A stretch of 64,000 bases of DNA, taken from NCBI GenBank assembly GCA_035610835.1, contig CM069458.1, positions 35,706,718-35,770,717 on the forward strand, in the 5' to 3' direction. The position numbers and the translations under genes are program-made. Positions 8,469 to 34,400 of this stretch are shown piece by piece; the first letter of the stretch is position 1, and every line of letters starts with the position of its first letter. A model generated the notes under the pieces. It saw only the letters and a program-made list of their open reading frames with translations, searched no databases and was not told the DNA's origin. The DNA comes from Ophiura sarsii (taxonomy: Eukaryota; Echinodermata; Ophiuroidea; Amphilepidida; Ophiuridae).

Positions 8469-8508
8469 AGCAGAGTTTTTCACTGGTTTCCATTAGCATT
8501 TACATTGA

Positions 8509-8932
8509 GATGATAGAACTATGTTTAAGCCTAAAATAAAAAGTTGTTGACTTGCCTTTTATGACCGACCCTAAAATCTGAACATCTAGGGTAGCTTTTT
8601 TATTTTTTTTATATATTTTTAATATTGATTTTTGCTAAATATTTTAAATATAATGTTTAACTGCTACTTAAACGTATGAATTTGTCAATTACTCACTTAT
8701 GTGTTAAATATTAATAGTTAGATGATAGAACTATGTTTAAGCCTAAAATAAAAAGTTGTTGACTTGCCTTTTATGACCGACCCTAAAATCTGAACATCTA
8801 GGGTAGCTTTTTTATTTTTTTTATATATTTTTAATATTGATTTTTGCTAAATATTTTAAATATAATGTTTAACTGCTACTTAAACGTATGAATTTGTCAA
8901 TTACTCACTTATGTGTTAAATATTAATAGTTA
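8509..8932. repeat. Tandem duplication, 2 x 212 bp
   Basis: 8509-8720 and 8721-8932 appear identical by eye, both starting GATGATAGAACTATG and ending TTAATAGTTA. Absence of differences implies a very recent duplication, an assembly error, or gene conversion. The unit holds an AATAAA. Confidence 0.9.
8535..8540 (+). promoter_or_regulatory. Candidate poly(A) signal AATAAA
   Basis: AATAAA lies about 290 bases after the stop at 8248. It sits inside the first copy of the 212-bp tandem duplication, so the same signal recurs at 8747-8752 and the gene may have two equivalent cleavage sites. Confidence 0.45.
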
Positions 8933-10396: not shown

Positions 10397-10702
10397 CACT
10401 AAGGCCAAACAAAGAAGGTTTGTCTCAGAAAACCGCCCGCATTGGTGTGTGAAATGAGCTACGGCGCGTAGGTCTGTGCACTGAGGCCTAACATTTTTAT
10501 TTTTTTGGTGGATTTTTTTTGGATTTTTTTAAAACAAAAAGTTTAAAAAAGTTCTCTGTAAGCTTGGATTAGCAACAACAACCAAAAAAATTGCATACCT
10601 CATAGCCTATTTTCTAAAAAAAAATTTTAAAAAATCGCACAGCGCTTAGCTTTTTTGCAAAATGTTTCTGAGACAAACTTTCTTCTTTGTTTGGCCTTAG
10701 TG
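10397..10702. mobile_element. Foldback miniature element, CACTAAGGCCAAACAAAG ends
   Basis: The left arm CACTAAGGCCAAACAAAGAA then GGTTTGTCTCAGAAA is mirrored by the right arm, ending TTGTTTGGCCTTAGTG. Related ends with TTTGTCTCAGAAAC occur at 31475-31500, 31715-31735 and 57300-57320. No clear target duplication seen. Confidence 0.7.
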
Positions 10703-10798
10703 CCTAGTATAAACAAGCCGCTCTCTACATATATCTAGATTATACATGCTTCCAATAATACTACAAATAATGGTTTGTACATTCTTGAATGGTGTATT

Positions 10799-11280
10799 AT
10801 TATTATTATTATTATTGAATCTTTCTTTATTGAGGGTAAACAGCTTCAGTGTCAAGCACTGCTTTCCAAGCAGGCCCTCATTTCACAGAGAATAATACAT
10901 AATTATTTACAAAATACATGGAATATAACAACTATTTACATAAATATATATACAAAACCCATCAGATAAATTCACCAAGAAAATGCAGAATTGTAATATA
11001 TAGAACACAAAATTTAAATTCCATGGATCTTTGTCCTAAATTGTTTCACTGACATATTCTCAAGCTCGGTTCTGATTGTTGATGGCAAGTTGTTCCAGGC
11101 ATATGCTGCCCTAACATGAAACGTTCACATACCTGAGTTAGACTTAAAGTATGAATGTTTCTTAGTCGTCTGAAATCTACAATCATGGAGAAAATAGAGT
11201 TGGATACTTTACACAATTTGTTGGACCCATCCCACTGCTCACATCTGAAATCTGACTTTGGCAAGTCATTGTTCAATAGA
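10799..11280 (-). mobile_element. 5'-truncated LINE-type retrotransposon, 3' end
   Basis: On the minus strand a frame reads AAYAWNNLPSTIRTE and ends FRTKIHGI then stop (about 11110-11022). NNLPSTIR followed by an F/K-rich end is typical of the C-terminus of CR1/RTE-like reverse transcriptases. A -1 shift separates it from the preceding piece (LPKSDFRCEQWDG, RLRNIHTL). The 3' end ACCCTCAATAAAGAAAGATT plus an (AAT)n tail sits at 10799-10840. It is a dead fragment. The same tail is found on the + strand at 15230-15310. Confidence 0.75.
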
Positions 11281-12091
11281 AAGCAGAGGTCTTCCCTTTA
11301 CCTTATCTTTCCACATTCCCCATCATGCAATGTTGAGGGATATGGCAAGCCAGCTGACGAAATAACTTGGATTAACATTGCCTTGGGAAAGAGGGGATTG
11401 CTTATTCCCTAAATCAAACACAAAGAGTACCAACCTATTATTCCATGATTGAAGATGATTTTGGCCATGTTTTGTGTATCATCAAATGGCTTGAAAAGAA
11501 TGATGTGATAGCATACACATTAACTACAATCATAGAAAAATGTGTTCGAACAGTGACCCTTTAATTACCATATATTACACGTTATTAGAGTCATGTGAAA
11601 ATACCAATTTGCATATGCTAGCCTGAAAGCTTCCCTTCAATATACCCCTCCCCTCCCCCAGTCAATGTTGCTAGGCCACAGGCTGATGTTTGGCAAGTTG
11701 GGCGACTCAACATTGATCAGGGGGGAAAGGGGGATGACTTCACATCAGGCCTACTAAGTGTTCGAACACTTTTTTCTAGCATTGTAGCTATGAGTGTGCT
11801 GGTTGAAATATATTCACCCTTACTCTTAAGTGGTATCAAATTTACCACAAGTTATACATGATTTATATAGAACAAATAAAGGTTTTGGGCATATATTCAT
11901 TTGCATGCGTTTCGTTATGTTTTGCACAGCAACGAAAAGCTGATGTGTTCATCTTTTCAATGATTTGAGGCAAACACATGTTTCAGTGCTCAACCACTTG
12001 CCTGACAATATGGGATGGTTTCAATCTGAATGTGCAAAAATCACTATTTTGTGCTCAAAAGTTAATCAAGCATAACTCTACACTGTAATCT
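11281..12091. other. Intergenic sequence with inverted motifs
   Basis: No gene seen. GTGTTCGAACA near 11541 and GTGTTCGAACAC near 11760 bracket a segment with a C-rich and a G-rich block (11645-11735), resembling a decayed foldback element related to 9060-9190. Confidence 0.3.
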
Positions 12092-12444
12092 TTAAAGGTA
12101 GATGACCCGATCACATTTTCGTAACACAGAATTATTTCAAACATACGGCGATTTTCATATCATATGAAAGCTCGTATTTTTCTCATCATCATACTGAAAT
12201 TTGACGGCCTAAATCGGTATAATTACGGATAAATCAATGAAATAACGTCGAATTACCGCGAATGGTGGTAACCACCGATATAGTTTGTGTACTACTCAAT
12301 GGGTACAGTTCACAGCATCTTGTGCGTCTAAAATAAGAACCATTAGAGCTATGCAACTCAAACTTTGGAACACGACTTTTTTGAGGATGACCTTTCATGT
12401 AGAATAGAAAACTTCAAGTTGAAAATCGGAACATCTACCTTTAA
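12092..12444. mobile_element. TTAA-flanked element with AGGTAGATG ends (copy A)
   Basis: TTAA at 12092-12095 and 12441-12444 flank inverted ends AGGTAGATG / CATCTACCT, the signature of piggyBac-type targets. The inside is about 345 bp and non-coding. It matches 29848-30189 in inverse orientation over most of its length, and a decayed third copy at 60807-61166. Confidence 0.85.
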
Positions 12445-15862: not shown

Positions 15863-16489
15863 ACATATGAAGAGCCTTTTTGCATAAGGGCTTACAAACC
15901 ACTCCTACATGTTACTCATTTTGCATTATTAATTAATCAAATTATTGTATGGCTGTTTTCATGACTTGGATTAGTGCATCCATGCACGCCAATTGAGGCA
16001 CCAACAATACAAGCCACATTCCACATAATGAATAGCCATCCATTTAATAATGCAAAGTGAGTAACAGGTAGAAGTGTGATGTAGGCCGTTTGCAACACAG
16101 CTCTTCAATATATAAAGTGATACGATTATTAGACATTGCTACATAATATGACAATAGAAAACCCTGTTATACAGGTTCAATCCTCAACTATCCCATTATT
16201 TAGAAATGAGAGATTTCTTTTTTGATTTTTTTTTCTCTCAAAAATGTCCATAAGTTTCAAGAAAATGGTTAGACCCTGACTTGAATGACCCAACTGCCTG
16301 TATACAAGATGATTTTTGTTAATGCTTAATGTATACAGTATGACTATTATGTTTTATATAATCCAAAGTCCGAATATATCAACTGATTAATCAATTCAAA
16401 TATGATGTGAATGTTAACAGCTATTATGTTGAAGTTCACACTGTTTCTATCAGAATCAAAGAGTACAATATTGATAATATGTTTCATTA

Positions 16490-17068
16490 TTCACCTAACA
16501 CTAAAAGTTCCAGACCAGATGTTTGATGTTGGCTAATTCAAAATCATTAGTCGGTACCAACAATCCGAGATAAACATTAAATGAGCAAATTTCTTCTCTG
16601 TAGTTTGATACCTCATTCATAAAAATCGAAAAGATACTTTTAAAGTTATGATAATTTCAATAACCACTAGTAACGACAACAAAGTTGTACTAGAATTATG
16701 GTTTTCAATGGGATATCAATTTGTATTGTCCACTGTGCACTATCTGAACCATTCAAGTATCTGGATGAATGGGTAACTTGCACGACAGGGAGTATTTACA
16801 CACACATTTTCACTGTGTAATCACACACTATAAGCAATGATATCACATAGAATCCCAATTTTTAATGCATTTTATTTGTGGTCATTCAAACCATCATAAC
16901 TTCAAAACTATCCACTCTAATCTTATGGATGAGATATCAAACTACGAAGAAGAAATTTGCTCATTTAATGTATATTTCATTTTTTTGGTCCTGATTATTT
17001 ATTTTGATTAGCCAACATCAAAGTACCTGGTCTGGAACTTTTTGTGTTAGGTGTACCATTTTGTGTAC
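16490..17068. mobile_element. Foldback insertion present only in the left arm
   Basis: The ends CACCTAACACTAAAAGTTCC and GGAACTTTTTGTGTTAGGTG are inverted repeats, followed internally by GATGTTGGCTAA and its mirror. The matching place in the right arm (about 27598-27602, ATCTACAAAGTAATGAAAC) is uninterrupted, so insertion at a TA is supported. A related right end lies at 7370-7392. Confidence 0.75.
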
Positions 17069-17751
17069 CTTGTAGATATTGTGCATGCTTTAATATTAAT
17101 TATTTACTATTTGGCATTTCAAAAAGATAACTTGATTCTGGATAAATCCATTTTATGAGGACCAATATGTAGCCAAGTAATGTACGACATAATTGAACGC
17201 TGCCAACTGACACACACAAAATCTGATAAGGGGTTCACATTTTACAGTGAGTCCAAATTTAAACTATGCCATGTTGGAAAGAAGATAGGAGGTCAAGGCT
17301 AAATTAAGGTCACAAATTTTCTGCTTTGAACTGTCGAATTCCGTGTTTTTCCGCTTTGTAAATTTTTCATTTTTCTGTGATGTAATTTTCCCCAAGAAAG
17401 CTTAACATCTACGATCTATAAAACCAAAATAAACACACTTTACAGAAAAACACATCATTTTAGATTTTTAGGCTTACCTTATTATTACTATAGCGGTAGC
17501 CGACCCTCTATATCGCCATTGTATTTTAATATTTATATTGTTTTATTCAAGACTATTTATAAATTTTGTGTTTTGGACATTTTTTGTGCATATTTTTCTT
17601 CTTCTTTTCATCAAAATGTCGTTTTCCGCGTTTAACCTCAATTCCGCGATTTTCGCAGAAATTCCGCAATGCAGAAAATTCGTGACCTTAGGCTAAATCC
17701 ACGCATTTGTCAAAGCGATTTGTTAATTCAAATAAATAAATGTATGCAAGC
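17069..17751. other. Sequence 3' of the TRIM gene, no gene seen
   Basis: 17085-17300 is homologous to the right arm. The TA in CTTATCAGA near 17225 is the empty counterpart of the insertion site used at 26781-27441. The rest is AT-rich; TTTATT near 17542 would be a poly(A) signal for the minus-strand TRIM gene but is about 730 bases from its stop. Confidence 0.4.
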
Positions 17752-18109
17752 CCGGGGGGGGGGGGGGGTACTCGCTTAAGACGGTATAGGGGGGTGTGCC
17801 GCTCTAATGGGTAGCTTTTTTGGCACAATATCCCTAAACATGGGGTATGGTTTGTGCTGGAAATCCCTAATAATAGGGTCACTTTTTACAAATGGGTCTA
17901 TTTAGCTCATTCTTTGTCTATTTTTGCGAAAAATTTGCAAAAATTAGGTCTACTTTCCCGATAACTTGCGAAAATTTGGTCTAAAATGAAGCAAAACCCC
18001 TAAAAATGGGTACCAATTTTTCCAACATCACCCCTAAAGATGGGTATGGGTTTTGAATCTCCAGCGGCACACCCACGACCAAACCAAATCTGAGTACACC
18101 CCCCCCCGG
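17752..18109. mobile_element. Element with poly-G/poly-C ends and 9-bp target duplication
   Basis: It starts CCGGGGGGGGG...TACTC and ends GAGTACACCCCCCCCCGG. TATGCAAGC is duplicated on both sides (17743-17751 and 18110-18118). The interior alternates imperfect CCCTAAANATGGG and GGTCTA blocks on both strands. It lies 160 bases after the TRIM stop codon. Confidence 0.8.
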
Positions 18110-18269
18110 TATGCAAGCCTGCCAAGATAAAAACATTTTTGTTCTGCGCATCAATTTCTTTGCTGCTTCGTGGCAAAGTGTTCTCTTTTAACTAAAAAGT
18201 TCAAAAGTATCACGTAGCTTTGCAGACAGGCAAATCTGATTTTATATATGAAATTCTTTTCCCCCAATG

Positions 18270-21200
18270 CTAAGACCAAGGAACAGTTTGACAGATATAG
18301 CCATACTTTCTAATTCGATTGCATTCTCCTTCCAGCCGAAGCAAATAGCCATCTTCGAGTACAACCAACCTGTCCGAATGAGGAGACACTTCACCTCTAT
18401 AAGCACGGCCCAACCTTAATATCTTTTGTTGCTGGGTTACAGTGTTGAAAACGTACAAGAAATCATACTTGTGACGCTTATCCTGAGTGCTAACAAATAA
18501 ATATCGATCGTCTGACGATAGAGCAATGCCTCCCACTGTCAAATCATCCCCGATAGGGTAATGACCTTTGAACTTGCCAAAGAAATTATCCACAGTTGTC
18601 ACTCCACGTCTAGCCTCGCTCACATACATCAGTCCTTGGCTGTTGATGCAAATTTGAGCACATTCTTTCCATTTTGTCTTCAATCTATGGACTTGAACGT
18701 ATTGGTTGTTCTGATATTTTAATTCAAAAAGCCCAGTTTTATCAAGGACTAGCAAGTGGCCCTCTAAGTTAATTGCGATATCCACTGGATGCTTTATGTC
18801 ATCGGGCATGTTGCATTCAATAGGATTACCATTTTGAGGGATCTTGTACAGTTTTCTGTGATTAGGGTACATAATGTGCAGACAGCCATCTGCATCGCAT
18901 TCGCAGAGGCCATGTCCCTTTATTGGCAACGGCCATTTCCCGACACACTTTCCAGATTGGTCAAGTTTTTTAATACAACCATTGATCCGAGTATCAGCTA
19001 CATGAATTTGACCATTGTGGCTGATACTTATATCAGATGGCTGTTTGAATCCATCACGATCGTGATAATTTGGACCAAAGTCTTCAGTTTTCTGAGCATA
19101 AACCTGAAGAATTGCATCATGGGTAGGACCCCATAGTTTTGTCAGCATTAAAATGGTATGCTTCCCTTCAAATTGAGGAACAAACTGTACCCTGAGAGTC
19201 TTCTTGTCATCGGGATCTATGAATGCTTTTACTGGGAGGAAGGTTTTCATATTGCCATCATATTTTGCAACACAAACAGCTCCCTCTATTGAGGGTTTAT
19301 CTATTGCAGAAGCAATAATCTCTTGTGGCAACTCAATCCGTTCACCATGAACATTTTCAGCATTTAGTATTATGTGGCATATCCCACCGATAAGTACAGT
19401 CCTGGTAGTTCTCACTATATTCAACAAACAACATGGTATGGCTATATGACATTGAAGGCCTTGAGTGATTTTGTCGCGAATTATCAAATGATAATCGCCA
19501 CGACACATGGGAGTGAATCGAATGCAGTTCTTTGAGTCACCAGGAAAAACAACTTCAGCTAATTCTGCTAAATGTTTGACTTTGTGCCAGGCAATTTGTT
19601 TTCCCGATGGACCCACAACAGTAATATTCACCGAGTCGAGACGCACTAACCCCCTGAGCACAACACAACAGGTGCGGTTACAGACACATAGACCTGCTTC
19701 CGCGTGTAATTTGCCCTCCGTAACCCAGAACACTTTTTGCATTTCCGTATCACCCATGTCAATTTTGAGAATGTGATCGCCAGTTGATTGAGGTTTGGCT
19801 GTTATCATATGTTCCTTGGTCTTATTATCAAATGCCACTCTAGCCTGTACTGCATTATCTACAGCCCCTTGTACTGGCCCCATAAGGACACCACGTATCT
19901 GGTTCGCTAAAGGAAATGTATCTGTATTTGAAAACACAAGTTTTGCCTTCACTTCTGCTAGTGTGGAAGTAACAACTGTAACTTTATAGCCGGCTACTTC
20001 TACTGTATACTTATAGAATACCTTATCTACATATCTGCTATGTACAAACTTTACCGTATAGTGGCCAGAATGGTGCGGGGTAAAGTGAACTATGATAGCA
20101 ACGGCGTGGGTGCCGTCTTGTTCTCGAACAACATCACAGTTCACTTTGTTTTGGTTTGGATCTTGTAGTTGGATACCAATGTGTTGCATATCATTTACTC
20201 GTAAATTTCCCACTGAATTGCTAATAGAAAATTGAACCACACACTTGCTACCAACGAGCAAACCTTTAGTTGATACTGTCTGCACAACCATGTCTATAAC
20301 TTGACCAAGAGAAGTAAGATGACCGCTTACAAGGGAACTGCTTTCTTGGTAGAGAAACCGAAGAATATTATCGCTCTGATAGCAACTTGCCTCAAAATCT
20401 GTCTCTGCTATTTCTTGCATCGTCGGTCCAACATCTCTTTTAGCCCTGACAATATCCAATGAGCTACCCACATCAAAGAGTCTAGTTACGTGTTCAGAGC
20501 ACGTGCCCATTTTCATTAAACTCAACTGGGCATTCTCTTTCTGCTCTTGGAACTGTTTTTGCCCACGTTTATGAGCACTCTCTATACTCCAAGTTACCTG
20601 CTTGTGGTATTCCTCAAGTTCTGTGCGGCATTGCTCATAAAACCTCTTGCTATCCTGCATGGCTTGCTCTGCTTTCTCTTTCCAGCTATCTTGATTCTTT
20701 TTTATTACCTTTAGTAAGTTCAATATCTCCTTCTGCTTGGAAAGAGCGCTATCAACGAGTCTATCAAGTTCAACTTTGTCTCTCTCTGCGACTGATGTCA
20801 GATTGCACCATCGGTGACCATTTTTCTTTGTGTGTGTCGTATCAGTGCACATATCACAGATGAACTCATCACCACATGTCTCGCAAACCTGAGTGAATTC
20901 CTGCTTATGGACACCACAGACTCGTCGGGCTTGAAGCTTTTGTAGTTGAGCTTCAAGTTCAGGTGTTAAGCCGTGAAAATCGTGATCCTCTAAGAATCTC
21001 ATCTTTTGTCTATGGGCTTTAAAGCAGACTCTGCACAGATACCCACAACCGGAATTGCACCAGCCCTCTGCGGGGGCGCTATCGTGACACAACTGACAAG
21101 CATGCGATGTCTGTGGCAAGCTGCCGGTAGGGGCATAGTTCCGTAAACGTTCAATATGAAGGCTGATTTTGAGATTGTCAACACCGCCTTCGGGTAGTGT

Positions 21201-21422
21201 TATAGGCGTACGGCATTCCGGACATGGAAAGATATTGGTTTCTTCATCAGTTTGTTGCCGTAAGATAGTCTTAATGCACAGTTCACAAACTGAGTGCTGA
21301 CACTCTGGGAGATTTTTGGCTTTCCTATCTTTGTCATTAAAACTTTCTAAGCACACGGGACAAGTCAGAAGAAATTTCTGCAGTTTTGACCAGTCTATGG
21401 AGTCCGTAGATGCCATAGCCAT
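18270..21422 (-). CDS. TRIM-type RING E3 ligase with filamin repeats and NHL-like propeller
   Basis: One uninterrupted frame of 1050 codons. Seen: C3HC4 RING (residues 21-70: CPVC, CQHSVCELC, CPEC); a first B-box-like zinc module (109-140) and B-box 2 (169-205: CGVH, CETC, CDMC, GH); a coiled coil about 212-310; four filamin-like Ig repeats (about 385-478, 480-570, 575-665, 668-776); and a C-terminal NHL-like beta-propeller (about 785-1040; FKQPSDISISHNGQIHVAD, HPVDIAINLEGHLLVLD). Family knowledge: RING-B-box-coiled-coil-filamin-NHL proteins (TRIM2/3/71 class) are cytoplasmic ubiquitin ligases whose propeller binds RNA or protein partners. Two start codons are close; Met3 has the better context and matches the start of the copy at 25078. 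Several filamin repeats, rather than one, are unusual. The single-exon form suggests retroposition or a lineage expansion of intronless TRIM genes. The specific orthologue cannot be assigned. Confidence 0.93.
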   Translation of the reverse strand: MAMASTDSIDWSKLQKFLLTCPVCLESFNDKDRKAKNLPECQHSVCELCIKTILRQQTDEETNIFPCPECRTPITLPEGGVDNLKISLHIERLRNYAPTGSLPQTSHACQLCHDSAPAEGWCNSGCGYLCRVCFKAHRQKMRFLEDHDFHGLTPELEAQLQKLQARRVCGVHKQEFTQVCETCGDEFICDMCTDTTHTKKNGHRWCNLTSVAERDKVELDRLVDSALSKQKEILNLLKVIKKNQDSWKEKAEQAMQDSKRFYEQCRTELEEYHKQVTWSIESAHKRGQKQFQEQKENAQLSLMKMGTCSEHVTRLFDVGSSLDIVRAKRDVGPTMQEIAETDFEASCYQSDNILRFLYQESSSLVSGHLTSLGQVIDMVVQTVSTKGLLVGSKCVVQFSISNSVGNLRVNDMQHIGIQLQDPNQNKVNCDVVREQDGTHAVAIIVHFTPHHSGHYTVKFVHSRYVDKVFYKYTVEVAGYKVTVVTSTLAEVKAKLVFSNTDTFPLANQIRGVLMGPVQGAVDNAVQARVAFDNKTKEHMITAKPQSTGDHILKIDMGDTEMQKVFWVTEGKLHAEAGLCVCNRTCCVVLRGLVRLDSVNITVVGPSGKQIAWHKVKHLAELAEVVFPGDSKNCIRFTPMCRGDYHLIIRDKITQGLQCHIAIPCCLLNIVRTTRTVLIGGICHIILNAENVHGERIELPQEIIASAIDKPSIEGAVCVAKYDGNMKTFLPVKAFIDPDDKKTLRVQFVPQFEGKHTILMLTKLWGPTHDAILQVYAQKTEDFGPNYHDRDGFKQPSDISISHNGQIHVADTRINGCIKKLDQSGKCVGKWPLPIKGHGLCECDADGCLHIMYPNHRKLYKIPQNGNPIECNMPDDIKHPVDIAINLEGHLLVLDKTGLFELKYQNNQYVQVHRLKTKWKECAQICINSQGLMYVSEARRGVTTVDNFFGKFKGHYPIGDDLTVGGIALSSDDRYLFVSTQDKRHKYDFLYVFNTVTQQQKILRLGRAYRGEVSPHSDRLVVLEDGYLLRLEGECNRIRKYGYICQTVPWS

Positions 21423-22190
21423 TGTACGCTGTGATTTAATCCAAAGTTAGGTTTACATGAACTTGACTTCAAATCTTATAGTTTTCTCAAGCTTACCTCC
21501 CATAGCCACTGTGATCCATGTATTACATCCAATAGTGAATTATTGTTGATCTACCAAAGTTATAAGATTAAACCATAGTTTGTAGTATAAAAGAGTTATC
21601 AGGTCATTTCCTCCACAGACGTTGTGGTAGTTATAGCATTGTGGTAGACACTTGCTATCTTCAGTAGATAACTTTATACATACTTGAGTATGTGTTAGTA
21701 TGATACAGTTTGCAGGTCAATTGCTCCAGTAGTAATTGTTGTCGTAGCAGTCGGGGTGTCAAAAACCTTTTCAACGTTAACGTTTTATACAGAGTATACA
21801 GTTGCATTCACTATAATCCAAAATTGTGTTCTGGTAGTCCCCTGATTCCAATTCTGGACGAGAAGTATTCATATTTCAAATTCTAATATGACAACAAGTT
21901 GTATTCATAAACATATTCTAATATGACAACAAGTTTTACATGTTTATTTCGCTTCCGTGTATCCCGGCAAACTGGTGGTTTGTGTGGTATTTACCCCGTG
22001 ATACGGGTCATTATCACATAACAGGAGCATATGGCCCGGATGAGTGAACTTCAATCTAATCAATCTATGACATTGACAAATGGCATAAGTTTGCAAACAA
22101 TAACTTCTATTTATAGACAGTGAAATAGAACATACCATTTTGCCTGCGGGTATGCCTTTTATTGATAGAAATCACCGAAGCATTTAATTG
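21423..22190. other. 5' flank of the TRIM gene, homologous to that of the second copy
   Basis: Shares blocks with 23490-25077 in inverse orientation, including GGCAAACTGGTGGTTTG and AAATGGCATAAG-side sequence. It carries one GCTATCTTCAGTAGATAAC at 21654-21672, conserved as the mirror at 24849-24867. No clear TATA box; the promoter position is not decidable by eye. Confidence 0.5.
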
Positions 22191-23489
22191 TGGAAACAGG
22201 GAATTTTTTTTTTAAATTGAGATCATCCCACACAGGTCCAACATCTATGTAATGATTTTGTTCAACTATAGAAAACTTGGCACTAACAATACCTAATTGA
22301 ACCATATTCATGTTTCTATAGTCCTACCTATTATTACAAAATAAACTCGTACTACGTGCTGGTATGCTCGCTCATCAATTATTCAGCTGTGTGTTAATAA
22401 AGGTTCATTCACTATTGTTCTTGTTTGGTACAGCACATTGTACTCATATTTTTAATAGGCAACTATTAATTCTCGTAGGCAACTATAGCTTGGTCAAGGA
22501 ACACCATCTCTTGATGGGTTTTATTGGGAAATAACTAAGAAGTTTTGGATCCCTAGTGGACTATATATATATATATTTTGAATCACATAGAATTGTCATT
22601 TTAATAAGTTTTGTTCCAATATTTTTTTAAGATAAATTTCAAACCCTTTTCAGACAGAAAAAATGCCATTGCCATATCTCAAAAAGTGTAGTACCTTGCG
22701 TATAAGACAGAAGTGCAGCTGTTTTTATCATTGCATCTAATGACCACAACTATCCACATTTCGCTGTTACTCTTTTTCAATGCTAGACATTTGATTTAAG
22801 GTGTAATTTGTAATCTATGGCATTTTTAAAATGTGTTGTGTTTCACTTAAAAAGAGCAAAGGGCAACTTTGTTCCAAGTTGTTGTGTGGGTTATTATAAC
22901 TTTACCAAATCTAGGCCTATTGTATCCTTGTTTCATGGATGTATGTCACACAGACAATAAAGCTCAATCAAAACTGAGTCTGGTCTGCTGTGATATCTTT
23001 TCACTTAGTTTTTATCCCCCTCTGGCTTGAAAAGCAGGAGGATATTGTGATCATGTTATGTATATGTAGGGGATGTATGTATGTGTGTGTGCTTTTAGTT
23101 AGGTTGGCCTGTTCAGTGCTCTCATTTGAAAAATCAAACTTCAATACCGACCATACTTGTTAACAATTATCTGATTTTTTTCTTCTCAAATCATGTAAAA
23201 TCAGCCGTTTTTTTGCCGAAAATCTGTCGAAAATTTAGCATGCTTAGGTTTTTATTTTACCAACTTCAAAGAGCATTTTGGTATATAACTCCCTGTGTCA
23301 GCCTCGGACCAGGACCGGAAAACCGTTATGCTCCTTAACTCTAGTGTGATATTCTGATCTAAGCCGTAGATCAGAATATTTGAATTGATGTATTGTTGTT
23401 GTACAAAGAGGGCTAATTTGTCTAAATCCTTACATGTAATACAATTGTAAAAAAGTACAAATCTCAGTTTTTATCAACATTTTCAATTA
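22191..23489. other. Spacer at the centre of the inverted duplication
   Basis: About 1.3 kb with no gene. Contains (TA)n at 22562-22575; a TTTTATCCCCCTCTGGCTTG hairpin followed by GGAGGATATTGTGATCATG (23010-23055), which also occurs inverted at 46560-46612; and the AAATCATGTAAAATCAGCCG repeat at 23190. The spacer ends in AAGCCGTAGATCAGAATA. Confidence 0.5.
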
Positions 23490-23809
23490 AATTCCGAAGT
23501 GATTTCTATCAAACAGCTTGGCATATCCGTAGGCAAAATGGTATGTTCTATTTGACTCTTTGAATAAGTTTCATTAGGATTATAGATTAAAATGTTTAAC
23601 CATTTATGTTGTACTAATCCATTATGTTATTCACATGTTAGACGGTTTTGTCTTTCCCATTCAGAAGACATCTTTGGGAATTACTTGATTCAATTGTTTT
23701 TCTTAGCGAGAATTGTTTACATTCTAGGTCCCAGGAAGCTCAGGTGTTTACAGTGGATATATAGACAATTTGACCGTGTACAATAAATAGAACTTATTGT
23801 ATGCAAACT

Positions 23810-24022
23810 TACTGTAAAGTTTAACGTTCACAAATCAGCAATACTGGCCTAACTCACAGCATGAACATTTTTTTAATGTAAACTTTGGAGTACATGTACC
23901 TTTGCAATGCACTGCTACAAGGTAGATTGGAAATATTCGCGGCATGACATTTTCACGAGTAAATGCTCCTTGCGAAATTAGCCAAATTTGAATGCAGGCG
24001 AACATTCCTGGTTTTACAGTAA
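23810..24022. mobile_element. TACTGTAAA element (copy 1)
   Basis: The ends TACTGTAAAGTTTAACGTTC and TTTTACAGTAA are inverted. It is the reverse complement of 54412-54636 (shared GCAATACTGGCC / GGCCAGTATATTGC and TTTGCAATGCAC blocks), and a third copy lies at 47275-47486. It is absent from the matching position of the left arm. Confidence 0.7.
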
Positions 24023-24225
24023 TGTAAACGTGGACATTTTCACGCTACATTAATTTTCGCGCTCCAAGCAGCTACTGCGAAAATAAAAACATGTGAATAT
24101 ATTTATTTTGTGTATAAGTCTATGTAATGATCTTTTAAATCGCGAATTTAAAAACGAGCGATATTTGATGAAAATCAGCAAAGTGTGAAAATATAATCGC
24201 ATGAAAATTAAAACTGTTACAGTGT
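24023..24225. mobile_element. Second miniature element, GCGAAAATAAAAACATG type
   Basis: Abuts the previous element. It contains TTTTCGCGCTCCAAGCAGCT and TGTGAAAATATAATCGCATG, matched inversely at 48838-49045. It is AT-rich, has mirrored ends (CATTTTCACGC / GTGAAAATA) and no coding capacity. Confidence 0.55.
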
Positions 24226-25077
24226 GCCATTTGTCAATGTCATAGATAGATTAGATTGAAGTTCAATAAATCCGGGCCATATGAATTTTGTATTGTAGCT
24301 GATAATGACCCACTTGATGGGTAAATCCTAAACAAACCACCAGTTTGCCGGAGTACACGGAAGCCATTGACAGCACACAATAGATGTACATGTACTACTA
24401 AATTTGATTTGTTGTTATCTTAACATTAGAACATATGTTATACGATACGTTTGGTCTTGTCCATAATTGGAATCAGTGGAATCAGAAGTCAATGCAAGTG
24501 AATGCCAATGCCATACTCTGTATGAAACTTTACTATTCACCTGCCTAATTGTTATCAATTCAGCAACCCTACCGCTACAACAACTACTACTACTACTGGA
24601 GCATAGATCATTTCAAATCAAAGTTTTCAGAAAATAGGTTTGATGACTTCTGAAACTTGTTGGACACGATTGGTCGTACATATACGTACGGATACAATGG
24701 TAACCAAACTTCCATCAGGGACCAATTTAATGACTTCGGATAATATGACTTAATATTACCTATTTTCTGATTTTTTTTCTCGATTGTTATTTGAAATGCT
24801 CTAGTGACTTGCAAATTGTATCATTACACATACTGATGTATGTATAAAGTTATCTACTGAAGATAGCAAGTTCCTACCACAATGCTACAACTACCACAAC
24901 GTCTATGGAGGCATTGGCCTGAAAAGTAATGTACTACAAAATGTGTTATTTATCTGATAACTTTGGTAGATCAATACCATGTTAATATCAAATCTAATGC
25001 ATGGATCAAAGTGGCTAGGGAGGTACATGTAAGCTTCATTACGCTATAACTTTAAGAGAAAAATGTGAAATATTGCC

Positions 25078-26547
25078 ATGGCATCTAAAGACTCCATAGA
25101 TTGGTCAAAGCTGCAGAAATTTCTTCTGACTTGTCCCGTGTGCTTAGAAAGTTTTAATGACAAAGATAGGAAAGCCAAACATCTCCCAGAATGTCAGCAC
25201 TCAGTTTGTGAACTGTGCATTAAGACTATCTTACGGCAACAAACCGATGAAGAAAACATTATCTTTCCATGTCCGGAATGCCGTACGCCTATAACACTAC
25301 CCGAAGGCGGTGTTGCTAATTTCAAAACCAGCCTTCATATTGAACGTTTACGGAACTATGCCCCTACTGACAACTTGCCCCAAACTTCACACGCTTGTCA
25401 GTCATGTTGCGATAGCGCCCCCGCAGAGGGCTGGTGCGATTCCGGATGTGGTTATCTCTGCAGAGTCTGCTTTAAAGCTCATAGACAAAAGATAAGATCT
25501 TTACAAGATCACATCTTTCACATCTTAACACCTGAACTTGAAGCTCAACTACAAAAGCTTCAAGCCCGACGAGTCTGTGGTGTCCATAAGCAGGAATTCA
25601 CTCAGGTTTGCGAGACATGTGGTGATGAGTTCATCTGTGATATGTGCACTGATATGACACACACAAAGAAAGAAGGTCACCGATGGTGCAATCTGACATC
25701 AGTCGCAGAGAGAGACAAAGTTGAACTTGATAGACTCGTTGATAGCGCTCTCTCCAAGCAAAAGGAGATATTGACCTTATTAAAGGTTATAAAAAAGAAT
25801 CAAGATAGCTGGAAAGAGAAAGCAGAGAAAGCCATGCAGGATAGCAAGAGGTTTTATGAGCAATGCCGCGCAGAACTTGAGGAATACAACAAACTTGTAA
25901 CTTGGAGTATAGAGAGTGCTCATAAACGTGGGCAAAAACAGTTTCAAGAAAAGAAAGAGAATGCCCAGCTGAGTTTAATGAAAATGGGCACATGCTCTGA
26001 ATATGTGACTAGACTCTTTGATGTGGGTAGCTCATTGGATATTGTCAGGGCTAAAAGAGATGTGGGACCGACGATGCAAGAAATAGCAGAGACTGATTTT
26101 GAGGCAAGTTTGTATCAGAGCGATAATATTCTTCGGTTTCTCTACCAAGAAAGCAGTTCCCTTGTAAGCGGACATCTTACTTCTCTTGGTCAAGTTATAG
26201 ACATGGTTGTGCAGACAGTAACAACAAAAGATTTGCTCGTTGGTAGCAAGTGTGTGGTGCAATTTTCTATTAGTAATTCAGTGGGAAATTTACGAGTAAA
26301 TGATATGCAACACCTTGGTATCCAACTACAAGATCCAAACCAAAACAAAGTGAACTGTGATGTTGTTCGAGAACAAGATGGCATCCACGCTGTAGATATC
26401 ATAGTTCACTTTACCCCGCACCATTCTGGCCAATACATGGTAAAGTTTGTACATAGCAGATATGTAGATGAAGTATTCTATAAATACACAATGGAAGTGG
26501 CAGGCTATACAGTTACAGAAAAAGTGGAGGCAGTACATTGGCTGTAG
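25078..26547 (+). pseudogene. Truncated second TRIM copy (RING, B-boxes, coiled coil, one filamin repeat)
   Basis: Head-to-head duplicate of the 18270-21422 gene, about 92% identical in protein by eye over 478 residues. All RING and B-box cysteines and histidines are kept. The frame starts at the ATG matching Met3 of the intact gene and runs 489 codons. Small deletions after AGYTVTEK and a one-base loss just before 26545 shift the frame to TAG, so the shared protein ends at the close of filamin repeat 1. Homologous but out-of-frame sequence continues to about 26705 (KIDMGDTEMQKVF), then the rest is deleted. It may be a dying copy, or it may make a short RING/B-box/coiled-coil protein able to dimerise with the full-length one. 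The clean first 478 codons mean either recent loss or retained function. The 5' flank is also duplicated. Confidence 0.85.
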
Positions 26548-26705
26548 ATGATGCAGTGGCATTTGATACTATGACCAAAGAACGTGTGATGAATCAACCG
26601 GCAATCACATTCTCAAAATTGACATGGGTGATACTGAAATGCAAAAAGTGTTCTGCGTTACAGAGGGCAAATTACACACAGAAGCAAGCCTGTGTATCTG
26701 TCACC
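26548..26705 (+). pseudogene. Out-of-frame remnant of filamin repeat 2
   Basis: After the TAG at 26545-26547, another frame still encodes the region equivalent to residues 549-580 of the intact gene (HILKIDMGDTEMQKVF, VTEGKLHTEASLC). Homology stops near 26705 and then resumes with left-arm sequence near 17290, which marks a deletion junction of about 2.4 kb. Confidence 0.75.
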
Positions 26706-26780
26706 AAGCCTATACCTTTTTTCCAACTTGGCATAGTTTCAATTTCTATCGAGAATCACTGTAAAATGTATATACCTCTA

Positions 26781-27441
26781 CAGGGTGAGTCAGAAAGAAC
26801 AAGCAATGTTTTGCAAAGGCGCCAGGAAACTTGCAGGCTTGCATATTCGAAACCAATGATATTGCCTAAAAGCTAGGCCACATATTTGGCTTTCATTCAA
26901 ATAAGAATTTTTGAATTTTACCATTGCGTCATAATGTTACAACAATTTTAGTAGAACCCGGTATTCTAAAGCCAAACCACAGGGTGATATAACGCAAACG
27001 CACAGAATTACCGGCTATCTGATTCAGAGATGGCAATCAATGAAACCTTTGAAAGGTACATGAATGTCGGATACAAAATCTTAAAATGACTGAATATAAA
27101 TTGGACTAAGTAATTATGAGTTAAAGACCATGCAAGCCTGAATTCAAGGGGAAAACCTGAAAAGAGGCATCACAGCTGAATAAGGAAGCAAACCTCATTA
27201 GAATGCATTAAAGAATGGCTTGATGATTTGACCATCATGTGGATTGGCTTTAAAATTGTGGATTGGCGGTTTTACCAAAATTAGTGTAACATGAGAACGG
27301 AATGCTCGATTTGAAAAATTCTTGTTTTGAATGAAAATTAAATAATAGGTCTTTAGTACTGTTATTGGTTTTGAATATGTTTTCTTGAATTGTTTGTGAT
27401 GCCTTTGCCAAAAAAGTGCCCATTCTTTCTGACTCAAACTG
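26781..27441. mobile_element. TA element with CAGGGTGAGTCAGAAAGAA end
   Basis: TA flanks it (26779-26780 and 27442-27443). The left end is CAGGGTGAGTCAGAAAGAA and the right end TTCTTTCTGACTCAAACTG. The left arm of the inverted duplication has the same site without the insert (mirror of CTTATCAGATTTTG near 17225), which proves insertion at a single TA. 661 bp, non-coding, mariner-type. Confidence 0.88.
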
Positions 27442-27639
27442 TATCAGATTTTGTTCTTCTTCAGTTGGCAGCGTTCAAGTATGTTGTTTCACGTATTTGG
27501 CAATTATTGGATCGCATTAAATGGGTTTATCCAGAATAAAGTTATCTTTTGAAATGCCAAATAGTAAATAAATAATTGCAAAATAATATCTACAAAGTAA
27601 TGAAACAGATTTTCAATATCCTACTCTTTGATTCTGATA

Positions 27640-27845
27640 CTGTAAAACAACTAAAATTTCACAGCAACTTTATTTAGCGAATTAGCTATTTAGTCAATTT
27701 TTTGCGGCAATTTAATTTCACTTATTTGTACCATCTTCCTATTATATATAACTATTATAAATAATATAATTGGCGGCAATTTAATTTGGCGAATTGGATC
27801 TCCTAGCGAAATTAAATTGCTAGTGAAATTAAGTTGTTTACAGTA
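27640..27845. mobile_element. TA element with CTGTAAAACAACT ends
   Basis: CTGTAAAACAACTAAAATTTCAC on the left is mirrored by GTGAAATTAAGTTGTTTACAG on the right; TA on both sides. The left arm has continuous GATTCTGATAG at this point, so it is a right-arm-only insertion. The inside repeats GGCGGCAATTTAATT. Confidence 0.7.
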
Positions 27846-28060
27846 GTATGTATCACTTTGATCTATAACATAACTGATAACTTCACGTTTATTTGTATAT
27901 GGATAAATCAAATTAGACTCAAGTTGGATATTCGGACTTTGGATTTATATAAGAAATAATAGCCGTATTGTCAACCTATTAGGCATTTAAAAAACTTCAC
28001 CTTATCTACAATTTTCTTGAAAATGTTGGGATATTTTCCAACAATATTCCAAATAATTTC

Positions 28061-28236
28061 CATAAGGTTAATTGCAAATAGGTAAAAATCAATTGATTAT
28101 CCTTTTCTGATGCATTGTGGGATCGCAAAGTGTACTAATTCTCGAATTTGTACGAGAATTTGTATACTTTGCAATCCCACATTGCATCAGAAAAGGATAA
28201 TCAATTGATTTTTACCTATTTGCGATAAACCTTATG
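28061..28236. mobile_element. 176-bp near-perfect hairpin element (copy 2)
   Basis: The arms match 8313-8373 (GCAAATAGGTAAAAATCAAT, GATTATCCTTTTCTGATGCA). The loop is itself palindromic (GCAAAGTGTACTAATTCTCG against CGAGAATTTGTATACTTTGC), so almost the whole element can fold. Confidence 0.8.
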
Positions 28237-28310
28237 GTTTTAAACTTTTTGAAAATAACAAAATCTCCCATTTCCAAATAATGAGAGGTTGGGTCTGTAA
28301 AACAGGTTTT

Positions 28311-29650: not shown

Positions 29651-30532
29651 ACGGGATCACGTCAAAACTCGACCGCCCGGCAACCGCCGGTTACGGCCGG
29701 TTCCGCCCGGTTCTCACAAAACGTGTCGTCTGTTATAATATACACACATAATGAGGTCAAATAGTAACACTCTGGTGAACACGACCGGTTGATAGTGCCT
29801 AGTCACACGCGTGAGCAATAACATCTTGAAGTAATGGGCTCTTTTAAAGGTAGATGACCCAATCACATTTCCGATTTTCAACTTGAAGTTTTCTATTCTA
29901 CATGAAAGGTCATCCTTAAAAAAGTTGTGTTCCAAAGTTTGAGTTGCATAGCTCTAATGGTTCTTATTTTAGACGCACAAGATGCTGTGAACTGTACGCA
30001 TTGAGTTGTACACAAACTGTATCGGTGGTATACCACTCGTTATTTCATCGATTTCTCCGTAATTATACCGATTTAGGCCGTCAAATTTCAGTATGATGAT
30101 GAGAAAAATACGAGCTTTCATATGATATGAAAATCTCTGTATGTTTGAAATAATTCTGTGTTACGAAAATGTGATCGGGTCATCTACCTTTAAGACTTAA
30201 AAGTCTCAGTTGACACCAGTACAATACAGCTATTGATTTTCGCTGGGGTTGGCTTTTTCAATCTGTTTATAGCTCAATTAACTTTTTAAAATCAATACCG
30301 AAAGTCTATGAATGTTTTTTTTTTATAGAACGATTATAGAGAGAGCTATTATGACCGCAAAGTAACAGATTGATAGCGTAAATTGGTCAGATTACAGCAT
30401 TAAGTCAACCGGCGGTTGTTCAGTGTTGCATGCGCGAATATTCATATACCAGTAAAACATTTGACCTGAAAGAACCGGGCGGAACCGCCCGTAACCGGCG
30501 GTCAACGGGCGGTCGAGTTTTGACGTCTCCCC
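29651..30532. mobile_element. Foldback element with GC-rich ends containing a nested TTAA element
   Basis: GTCAAAACTCGACCGCCCGG followed by repeats of ACCG/CGGT (29661-29711) is mirrored by 30471-30522, ending GGTCGAGTTTTGACG. The interior is interrupted by the TTAA element at 29848-30189. Confidence 0.7.
29844..30193. mobile_element. TTAA-flanked AGGTAGATG element (copy B), nested
   Basis: TTAA at 29844-29847 and 30190-30193, ends AGGTAGATG and CATCTACCT. It is inverse to copy A (12092-12444), with long shared blocks such as TTCCAAAGTTTGAGTTGCAT and CATATGATATGAAA. Confidence 0.85.
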
Positions 30533-30587
30533 TACACATTTTCATGGTCAGGTTTGCTTACAGTGTAATATTTGACTCCCCGCCTTC

Positions 30588-30823
30588 TTGACACTTTCCA
30601 TGTGGCCGGCGTCTGCAGACGACGTTCCAAAACTTCACAAAATGTTTCAAAAATGTCAAAATTCTTGAATTTCATTGCCATATTTGGAATCACCATGAGA
30701 AATGATTTATAATAAGTACAATCATGCCTTGTATTGGTTCTGTAACTTGAAATAGACTGAAAGTTGGGAAAGGTTTCTGGAAATCTGTTTTATGGTAAAA
30801 CCAATAGCCGCGTGGAAAGTTTT
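30588..30823. mobile_element. CACTTTCC...GGAAAGT element (copy 2)
   Basis: Matches 14811-15061 and 51587-52018 (GCGTCTGCAGACGACGTTCC; ATATTTGGAATCACCATGAG). The flanking TTAA has decayed (TTGA on the left, TTTA on the right). Confidence 0.7.
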
Positions 30824-30891
30824 ATGCAAGTGCAAAACAACTTAAGAAATCCCCATTACTACTTTTTATCTTCTTCTTTTCTCAGGCTACT

Positions 30892-30897
30892 TTTATT
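30892..30897 (-). promoter_or_regulatory. Poly(A) signal of the LDLa gene
   Basis: AATAAA on the minus strand (TTTATT on +), about 60 bases after the TAG at 30956-30958. It fits as the 3' end signal. Confidence 0.6.
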
Positions 30898-30955
30898 AAG
30901 CCCTTGGTTATTGTTTGGAAACCCAGATACATGAGTTCTGGGACAACTGGTCGAC

Positions 30956-31401
30956 CTAGCGCTTTATATGTTCATATATATAATGTTCATCACCTCCATC
31001 AGATTTGTAGCTCGCATTTAAATTGGCCCCACTGCCAGGAGAACCATTGAAGGAGCGGACATCCTTGATGGAAGGAGGACGGTGCGTTACAATCGCATGT
31101 TGCCCTGATGCCTGTGTAAAGAATGGTCCTTTACGGATATCCCCTTTGGCCCTACTGCTAGATTCCATCTCATAAATATTCACATTGGCATTGAGTACGG
31201 TCGTGTGCTTCTTCAGTTTTTTATCGCGTCGCTTCTTACAGCTGTTGTGTTTGCACGGTGTTTCTGGTCTGCGACGGATTACTACGAAGAGCGCCACCAC
31301 AAATATGAGTAGACTTTCAAAGCTGACAACACCCACCAGTATGTACAGGGTGACCATCTTGGTTTGAGAGGCCTCATCGTGCGCCGCTTGATTGGCACAA
31401 A
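30956..31401 (-). CDS. LDLa gene exon 3: stalk, TM segment and cytoplasmic tail
   Basis: The acceptor TTTCCTCCAATTTAG precedes 31401. The frame is also open upstream to an ATG at 31474, and that ATG would give a signal-like N-terminus (VVTLVVLFISSNLVCA), but this part is the pyrimidine-rich intron end. The phase match to exon 2 favours the splice. Confidence 0.85.
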
Positions 31402-34400
31402 CTAAATTGGAGGAAATAAATAAAACAACAAGTGTTACAACCATTGTTGCATGCATATGCATTAAGGCACACAAAAAAGGTTTGTCTCAGAAACTTTTTG
31501 CAAAAAAAGTTAAGTGCTGTGCGATTTAAAATTGAATTGGCTATTAGGTATACTATTTTTTGGATTGGCCATGTTTAATTTGGATGGTTTCCAAATTATG
31601 CGTATCATTTTTGTGTTGATTCAAGCTTACAGAGAACCAGAGGGGGGAGGAAAAGTGCCTCGCCGCCGCGTAGAGTTACTCGCTTTAAAGCCTTTTCACA
31701 TACCAATGCACGTGGGTTTCTGAGACAAACCTTTTGGGGTTTTTGGTTTAATATTTATATCTCTAGGGTGCAAAATCTACTGCATATAGCAACAAATGTG
31801 TTTACCTTTATTTTTTAATGCATAACAGCAAATATATTTTGCTTCTTACAGATAGCGACGTTTAGTTTAGTGACTGTTACACTTGTAAACTGTTAAAAGT
31901 AGCAAATGTTATTTTGCTATTGTCGGTGTATATATAACTACAACATTTAGATTTGCTGCTATCTTCAGTAGATAACGTTATACAATTGTGCAACTATCAT
32001 CAGAATGAATAAGGTATTCACATTACATTAATTAGCATAGTGGGTGTTTCAATAAATGTGGGCATGTGTGGTCTAGTGGATAGCATGCAGGGTTCATTAT
32101 ACAAAGGTTGTGAGTTCTAGCCACGCTATAGCCAACATGTTTGTATCGTTTGGGCAAGATACTTAGTCTCAATTGCCTCGTCGACCCAAGCAAGATTGGG
32201 GAGCTGTTATAGGGGATATTACAATCTAAGTGCTGATACATTGTGGGCGCCGTGTCGGTAGCCTGGTAAATGAAGCGAAGTGATTGTGACGATTTCCTAA
32301 TGGCAGCAAAAACCAGTGGTTCGGAAGTCACTCGTAGAAATTGTGGTCCCGTGCATCGGAAGAGCAATACCCGAGCACGTTAAAAAGGTTACAGACTCTT
32401 TCGTAAAGAGAAGAGGATCATCCCATTCTGTATCTGTTCACACATCTAACGGACCCCAGTGGAAGCTATGTAAGTTTATTGGGTTATCCAGGGTTGTAGG
32501 ACCCAAATGATCTCAAATCAAATCAGGTGTGATAGTAAAAAATCTTAATGTCCCTAATAATTTATTAATAGAAAATTGTCCCAAAAGGATTCACATTTTG
32601 TTAATTTCGGGACTAATAATAGCAAAAACTTCACATTTGTTGTAGATGATAATCTTTTATAGTTTAATCAGTTCCAAATTGGCGAGAAATATTTGGGTTT
32701 TTGTTCAATTCAAGCGTACGCCCACGATTATGGCCACACGCATGCGGTGATGGCCACACGCACATGTCATTCATATGATGCATACACTGCAAAAAGAAGC
32801 GTTTATATTTCTGATAACATTTAATAAACACTTCAACACGTTTATCATTGTGTTTTACGTGTAAATGAGGTATAGGAGGCATTGCATACGATAAACGTTT
32901 GCATAAACACTACAACACTATAACATGTTTATATCAGCAATAAGAAACATGTTGGGGTGTTAATAATTATACAACAAATACCTCTATAAACGTGTTGTAG
33001 TGTTTATGCAAACGTTTATCGTATGCAATGCCTCCTATACCTTTACACGTAAAACACAAAAATAAACATGTTGAAGTGTTTATTAAGTGTTGTCAGAAAT
33101 ATAAACGCTTCTTTTTACAGTGTAGTGTACTAATTGCCTTCATTCACTGTTGTAAGGCGGTTTTGACAATTTGGAACTGATCAAACTATAGAAATTGTAC
33201 TAATATTTTGAGAAGAGAGTAACACATCTCTAATAAATCCACTGCTACTGTTGGTAGGCAGTAGCTTATTTCCTATGACTATCCTACATCATCTGTATAT
33301 TTTAACTTTTTGCTGTTATCTTCAGTAGATAGTAACATATTTCTAAAAGCTAAATAGGCCTATTCTTAATTGTTGCAGTCAGTAGATAGCAACATATTCG
33401 TTGTTGCTGTTTATTTCAGTACATTTTCAACCTCTGACCATCAGGTGATAGCACTAAAAATATAATGACACACATTACTGGTATCTGCAGTAGATAGTGA
33501 TACATCATTGTAATGTTATCTTTTGTGTATAAAATGAAGATATCAGCAAAGGGTACATCGCTGTTTACTGAAGATAGCAGTGAAATGTATACAGTCATCA
33601 AAAAAAGTAATTATACAGGTAATAAATGGGTTTTTAACTCTAAATATATATAGGGCCTATTTTACCTCAAAATATTAAATTATAAAGTTGAAAAGTAAAA
33701 TGTGAAAATGAAAATGAAATTGTGACTTTACCTTATCAATATTCAACCTATCATAGCAATATTCAACCTATCATAGCGTGCAATATCTCATATTAAATAA
33801 GATAAATTTCTCAACAACTTTATAATTTAATATTTTTAGGTAGGATATATATTTTTAGAGTTAAAAGCCCATTTATTATCTGTATAGTTACAACAGAAGT
33901 ACTTTCATTTGCATTTTGTTGTAAGTAGGTGCCAGTAGTGGGGTAAATCCAGGTCAATCCCCACAAAAGTAATTGTTTTTAAGCAAAAGACATCTTGATC
34001 TTCAATAAAAACTGATGAATGAACCAGTTTGCTCTAAAGGTGAAAACAATCACACAAACTTGACCTTTGGTGGTGTGTGACCTGCAGAGTCGCCAGTTTG
34101 ATTTCTAATCACTCAGTCATTGATTGACCTTGTTAATGTCTTTTAGGCTATTGTTCATATTTGCTCTTTTAATACAAAGGACATTGCTATCTACTGAAGA
34201 TAGCATTAAAATGCACATAAAAATATATTGAAGATAGACAACAAGGCATTGCTTATGGCCAAAAAGACAAAAGCAAAATACATTCATCATAGCTACCTAT
34301 TGTACACTGCAAAAAGGTTGCTTAAATATTTACTCAACATTTTACACAACGTTGTTGAAGTATGCAACCGCTTAACAGTTGCGTAAAATTTACACAACAC

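Follow-up and report, generated by a model that had tools for sequence, protein, structure and literature searches.

Truncated duplicates of genes are usually filed as pseudogenes. A window of 64,000 nucleotides from the brittle star Ophiura sarsii (C18:35706718-35770717, in an assembly of 1,573,662,873 bases, or 1.57 Gb, and 748 contigs) holds a pair of TRIM open reading frames (ORFs), of which the left is full length and the right is cut short. The locus thus poses the question of whether the right copy is a dead gene or a working short protein. The pair serves as its own internal control: one deletion divides a constrained stretch from sequence that decays at the rate of the flanks. Should the short form prove to regulate the long one, the locus would provide a TRIM ligase with a dominant partner that can be separated from it genetically.

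An inverted duplication with diverged arms

The inverted duplication is real. Comparison of the window with itself revealed homology in mirror order between two arms separated by a spacer of about 1.3 kb (Table 1). The original prediction of an imperfect palindrome with inverse-order arms of 6.0 and 4.8 kb is confirmed by arms of 6,000 and 4,803 bases joined by mirror-order anchors, and both 5ʹ flanks belong to the palindrome, as had been claimed, with their anchors likewise in mirror order. The TRIM ORFs are arranged head to head with their 5ʹ ends facing and their start codons 3,655 bases apart. For 10 of the 11 right-arm blocks, the mirror partner is the sole other match within the window (E ≤ 0.01); the eleventh, 24805-25064, has three extra window matches at this threshold, each of at most 28 bases. 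Alignable arm sequence in the blocks measured amounts to about 2.3 kb (1,434 coding nucleotides, 151 remnant columns and 743 flank columns).

Table 1. Features of the inverted duplication, in window positions; L and R denote the left and right arms.
Feature	Position	Strand	Description
Left arm	16191..22190	-	6000 bp, window self-comparison
Spacer between arms	22191..23483	.	1293 bp
Right arm	23484..28286	+	4803 bp, window self-comparison
Left full-length TRIM ORF	18270..21422	-	1050 aa: RING, two B-boxes, coiled coil, filamin-like repeat(s), NHL-type propeller
Right truncated TRIM ORF	25078..26547	+	489 aa: RING, two B-boxes, coiled coil, filamin repeat 1, 9-residue tail
Left sequence without right counterpart (C-terminal coding and proximal 3ʹ)	17287..19676	-	2389-bp deletion on right
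Remnant of lost coding sequence past right stop	26548..26705	+	alignable 26555-26705 = L19839-19676
Inverted-repeat (MITE-like) element, left arm	16490..17065	.	TA on both sides
Insert with imperfect terminal inverted repeats, right arm only	26770..27441	.	absent from left
Two inserts, right 5ʹ flank	23558-23782 and 23812-24224	.	relative to left arm
Mirror block, CDS and proximal 5ʹ flank	L21719-19976 / R24805-26518		90% identity
Mirror anchor	L22190-22119 / R23484-23557
Mirror anchor	L22114-22086 / R23783-23811
Mirror anchor	L22085-21951 / R24225-24364
Mirror anchor	L21863-21778 / R24455-24532
Mirror anchor	L19839-19676 / R26555-26705
Mirror anchor	L17287-17237 / R26713-26769
Mirror anchor	L17228-17066 / R27442-27599
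Mirror anchor	L16489-16448 / R27598-27639
Mirror anchor	L16377-16299 / R27928-28010
Mirror anchor	L16216-16191 / R28261-28286

Both arms have received insertions of their own. The right arm preserves the empty site of the MITE-like element as uninterrupted sequence at 27598-27599, and the element has at least 103 matches in the genome (40 of 5,281 candidates scored). Parts of the second insert in the right 5ʹ flank match 54610-54402 and 49045-48840.

Homology ends at both arm ends. A larger palindrome was rejected because the outer mirror matches (10415-12431 versus 29869-31733) resemble inverted-repeat elements. The pair L12431-12092/R29869-30193 was discarded as an arm on account of its third relative at 60826-61169 and its own TAAAGGTAGATG-type ends, L10706-10579/R31456-31567 because its end sequence occurs twice in the left region, and L10454-10415/R31694-31733 because it looks like a terminal-inverted-repeat element. 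The regions 12092-12431, 29869-30193 and 60826-61169 belong to one family of elements about 340 bases long whose ends resemble TAAAGGTAGATG / CATCTACCTTTA; the copies at 12092-12431 and 29869-30193 are 92% alike in inverse orientation. Two copies of an apparent terminal-inverted-repeat element, 10400-10706 and 31456-31733, flank the TRIM pair in mirror-image positions by chance.

Elsewhere in the window, units of about 96 bases, approximately 95-98% alike, form a tandem array that occupies 61837-64000 and continues past the window end. At 8508-8932, a stretch of 213 bases is repeated directly in tandem with 100% identity, a duplication that is either very recent or an assembly matter. A 172-aa ORF on the minus strand (30956-31474) appears membrane-protein-like by eye, its start and one further stretch being hydrophobic; it matches no Pfam family at E ≤ 0.001 and has no second copy within the window by tblastn. 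A Pfam scan of 10 further window ORFs assigned none of them to a family at E ≤ 0.01.

The full-length gene and its relatives

The left TRIM gene is intact and intronless. Its protein scores 37.5 bits for filamin over its whole length (Pfam cut-off 26.9), with no single stretch passing alone, and has no match to Pfam NHL at E ≤ 0.001. The C-terminal part of its structure model matches the NHL structure of TRIM2 (7qrv_B, E 3.2e-10), and by this match the protein possesses the NHL propeller of TRIM class VII within subfamily C. Model confidence is low to moderate for both copies (mean pLDDT 50.7 for the left, with residues 472-793 under 50, and 64.1 for the right). An orthologue-like relative of 1,043 aa, P0001, is 72% identical over the full query and scores 25.4 bits for NHL (cut-off 20). 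Because this relative has the C-terminal half, the full-length state is ancestral.

A genome search with the left protein returned at least 38 matches (44 of 901 candidates scored). Among the matches listed are the left protein itself, the right copy at 92% identity and other relatives at 29% or less, and left and right are the only close pair listed in the assembly, the next TRIM standing at 28%. Fifteen of the 38 listed TRIM-like matches cluster at 40.99-42.77 Mb of contig C19, which carries 17 of the 38 in all; members of the cluster include L011, L013, L015, L019, L021, L023, L025, L026 and L030. The open frames on C19 span 376-488 aa, far below most other TRIM-like matches, and the cluster could consist of short TRIM genes or of first exons of longer ones. 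A literature search for a bivalve TRIM expansion yielded no match.

What the right copy has kept

Translation of the right ORF begins at the counterpart of the left Met3, and right residues 1-480 share 92.3% identity with left residues 3-482 over 480 residues. The conserved part stops at residue 480, six residues past the seventh predicted filamin strand (residues 465-474), and the 9-residue C-terminal tail that follows has no left counterpart. Within domain limits set by the authors from profile, alignment and model results, amino acid differences number 3/58 in the RING, 5/30 in the linker, 8/55 in B-box 1, 2/41 in B-box 2, 8/164 in the coiled coil and 9/102 in filamin repeat 1. The right copy retains all 23 tested Cys/His residues that are invariant in the family alignment (26 aligned members). 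The predicted 478 clean codons at about 92% identity with every zinc ligand present thus hold up, with 37 of 478 residues differing between the copies.

By profile, the RING of the right copy is recognizable (zf-RING_UBOX 26.5 bits, cut-off 25.2; zf-C3HC4 23.7, cut-off 21), and the best PDB match of its model is the TRIM2 RING (7zj3, E 8.1e-4). The B-boxes are identified by their full set of family-invariant Cys/His, despite profile scores below cut-off (ANCHR-like_BBOX 19.6 of 27 bits; zf-B_box 16.0 of 24.1). The coiled coil scores 17.3 bits for TRIM_CC, under the cut-off of 30, and is predicted as a single long helix (residues 211-316). The filamin repeat is homologous to left residues 398-458, scores 14.8 bits against the Pfam cut-off of 26.9 and has a weak fold match to the Lin-41 filamin domain (4umg, E 0.018). 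The right model (pTM 0.27) contains a zinc-finger region, this helix and seven strands at residues 377-474.

The NHL propeller is absent from the right protein, and the corresponding DNA is deleted. The right copy had been described as cut down to RING, B-box and coiled coil; those parts are indeed kept, but the description is incomplete, as filamin repeat 1 is kept too. Likewise, of the claimed loss of filamin repeats 2-4 and the propeller, the propeller and a later filamin-like region are deleted, but the count of 2-4 is unsupported, the model of left residues 472-793 having a pLDDT below 50. A protein search with the right copy, limited by length and shared words, found no truncated relative at E ≤ 0.001 among 4,392 candidates; this counts as weak evidence of absence, because the length range searched leaves out the full-length relative and known relatives of 589-757 aa were missed as well.

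Constraint within the short reading frame

Over 478 codons, the two ORFs differ at 90 of 1,434 nucleotides (19, 21 and 50 at the three codon positions) with no indels. Estimates of dN and dS are 0.0387 and 0.180 (NG86), 0.0385 and 0.152 (YN00) and 0.0394 and 0.143 (ML), that is, a dN of about 0.039, a dS of 0.14-0.18 and a ratio between the copies of 0.21-0.28. The comparison is pairwise because the polarising outgroup is one protein, P0001, available as protein sequence alone. Filamin repeat 1 (codons 331-478; dN 0.037, dS 0.17) is as constrained as the rest. B-box 1 is more divergent than the coiled coil, which counts against maintenance.

The flanks differ from the ORF. Seven flank blocks contain 107 mismatches in 743 columns (14.4%; individual blocks 10-17%) and 26 gap events, whereas the 1,434 nucleotides of the right ORF contain no stops or indels. 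At the flank rate of 26 events per 743 columns, with half assigned to each lineage, the right ORF should have acquired 25 indels under neutrality throughout, 10 if neutral evolution had covered 40% of the time since duplication and 6.3 if it had covered 25% (P 0.002 for the zero seen). Among 2,000 simulated neutral right copies at 7% divergence, 1,973 acquired a stop, and each had at least 47 amino acid changes (median 73) in one lineage, compared with the actual 37 across both lineages. When polarised with P0001, 10 of these changes fall on the right and 9 on the left, leaving 18 of the 37 unassigned.

The low dN/dS, the absent indels and the decay outside the frame together argue that the right copy is not a neutral pseudogene. 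The suggestion that it might be a young pseudogene is accordingly disfavoured by the ratio of 0.21-0.28, which is not near 1, by the lack of indels and stops and by the symmetry of the amino acid changes; over these 478 codons, the frame is neither disabled nor neutral, and it is the remnant beyond the stop that behaves neutrally. Judging from these substitution patterns, a dead gene is the less likely reading of the right copy and a working short relative the more likely one, and the right ORF has probably been maintained as coding since the truncation.

The deletion and the age of the truncation

The 3ʹ flanks of the two arms run colinear from L17287 and R26713 outward, so the truncation does not coincide with a border of the duplicated segment; the C-terminus of the right copy was lost by internal deletion. 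Smaller gaps lie between codon 480 and the 2,389-bp deletion. The remnant past the right stop has 18 mismatches in 151 columns and a 13-nt frameshifting gap, and 11 of its 49 alignable codons differ in residue. Its nucleotide divergence resembles that of the flanks (18/151 versus 107/743, Fisher P 0.52) and exceeds that of the ORF (18/147 versus 90/1,434, P 0.0098), as does its amino acid divergence (11/49 versus 37/478, P 0.0024). Differences between the left protein and P0001 are similar in the two regions (121/477 in the ORF part, 15/54 in the remnant part).

Polarised amino acid changes in the remnant number four on the right and three on the left, with four unassigned. The four right-specific changes compare with an expectation of 0.97 under constraint (P 0.017) and 3.95 under neutrality. 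The three left-specific changes are also raised over the 0.97 expected (P 0.076), and part of the excess may therefore reflect faster evolution of the region in both copies. Expected counts point towards a truncation that predates roughly the last quarter to two fifths of the period since duplication; against a recent truncation, single-test P values are 0.002-0.02, which leaves room for a cut within that interval. As the remnant comprises 49 codons, the age of the truncation is the weakest step in the argument. Nonetheless, a remnant that has diverged at the flank rate and bears a frameshift suggests that the truncation is probably fairly old and that the short ORF was maintained afterwards.

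Competing explanations

The explanation that best accounts for the locus as a whole, and the one we hold to be reasonably probable, is a TRIM protein that was duplicated, truncated and then selected in its short form. A segment with an intronless TRIM gene was copied in inverted orientation, and the right copy then lost everything past the first filamin repeat through the 2.4-kb deletion and smaller ones. The remaining 480 codons and the 9-residue tail would have been kept by purifying selection as a short protein, which may fold as a RING ligase and dimerise via its coiled coil both with itself and with the left protein. Since the short protein lacks the part that would choose substrates, mixed dimers could change the site or the strength of the left ligase's action.

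An assembly artefact, whether a false inverted join or a misplaced haplotype, is extremely improbable here, although palindromes are classic trouble spots for assembly. A false hairpin join is expected to yield near-identical arms; the 14% divergence of the flanks and the arm-specific insertions, one with an empty site, argue against it, as do homology that halts at both arm ends and coordinates that are chromosome-scale. Conservation of the ORF by gene conversion between the arms, with no selection, is also very unlikely. Codons 135-224 lack any synonymous difference (43 of 5,000 random placements are as extreme), and the ORFs share an identical run of 131 nt (51 of 2,000 as extreme), a pattern that permits a single local conversion tract in the region of B-box 2 and no more. 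The arms have not been kept near identical, and pervasive conversion was rejected because the dS of 0.14-0.18 equals the flank divergence of 0.144; this agreement makes the arms look like the product of one event and indicates that the low dN does not stem from conversion. The proneness to gene conversion proposed for the palindrome therefore has weak local support at codons 135-224, but the ORF as a whole has not been homogenised. A recent death of the right copy, which would have been full length for most of its history and cut so lately that its 480 codons have not decayed, is rather unlikely. Such a history would suit a copy whose substrate-reading half is gone, since truncated copies are often pseudogenes, and the 49-codon remnant that dates the cut, where left-specific changes are raised as well, rejects a cut within approximately the last quarter of the time at P 0.02-0.03 only. 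It is at odds with a remnant at flank-level divergence that carries a frameshifting gap alongside other deletions, and with the absence of the indels predicted for 25% neutral ageing. It is the joint pattern of decay outside the frame and none inside it that makes a maintained short protein the preferred reading.

A maintained short protein need not act through its neighbour. It may instead be an autonomous RING-B-box-coiled-coil-filamin ligase with targets of its own, in a layout presumably like that of TRIM45, a possibility we regard as doubtful. Three of the 30 TRIM-like genome ORFs fetched (L018, L024 and L027; 460-529 aa) combine a RING and B-box with a filamin-like end and show no NHL match, so short TRIMs of this kind may be an accepted form in this genome; their filamin scores are all under the Pfam cut-off of 26.9, L027 reaching 25.5 bits and the other two being weak (E 0.0015 and 0.071). 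The constraint on filamin repeat 1 is in keeping with such a ligase. However, substrate contacts usually lie in the part that has been lost, and the sequence evidence is equally compatible with pairing.

Comparison with known TRIM systems

In the classification excerpted from PMC3503706, TRIM subfamily C comprises classes VII and X, that is, TRIM2/3/71 and TRIM45. The left protein shares RING, B-boxes and filamin-like and propeller regions with this subfamily, and the right protein would have the filamin-only layout of class X. Because that layout derives from a full-length neighbour, it would be convergent with class X and not a sign of TRIM45 descent.

Partial TRIM duplicates are already known in primates, and the right copy adds a further case. 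The passages on human TRIM73 and TRIM74 in PMC3228819 describe partial duplicates of TRIM50 that have the N-terminal tripartite part only, with function given there as uncharacterised, and state that TRIM73 arose when the exons of its first three domains alone were duplicated (PMC3228819). Like those genes, the right copy is a TRIM paralogue that stems from local segmental duplication and has no C-terminal part. Unlike in TRIM73, a wider segment was copied and the C-terminal half of the gene was lost by deletion, the filamin repeat was kept, and the orientation is inverted.

Two further systems bear on how a short TRIM might act. As outlined in PMC9732051, association of the paralogues TRIM2 and TRIM3 uses a filamin domain from one partner and a coiled coil from the other. 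Both paralogues are full length with an NHL domain, unlike the right copy, which nevertheless retains both pairing modules, and the retention of coiled coil and filamin repeat makes pairing with the left protein plausible. On this analogy, the right protein may work by pairing with the left one, a proposal we advance tentatively. The gamma and delta forms of TRIM5, according to PMC1906832, are dominant negative on TRIM5 alpha when over-expressed, presumably via the coiled coil, and a SPRY-less mutant served as a dominant negative in PMC2731049. Like TRIM5 gamma and delta, the right copy is without the C-terminal reading domain; those are splice forms of one gene, unlike the right copy, and the domain concerned is B30.2 and not filamin-NHL. 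It is conceivable, if rather speculative, that the right copy is a gene-encoded and selected regulatory subunit of the left TRIM that sets its strength or target range through mixed dimers. Equally speculatively, such a subunit would make the principle of TRIM5 gamma and delta permanent, with the truncation placed just behind a folded domain.
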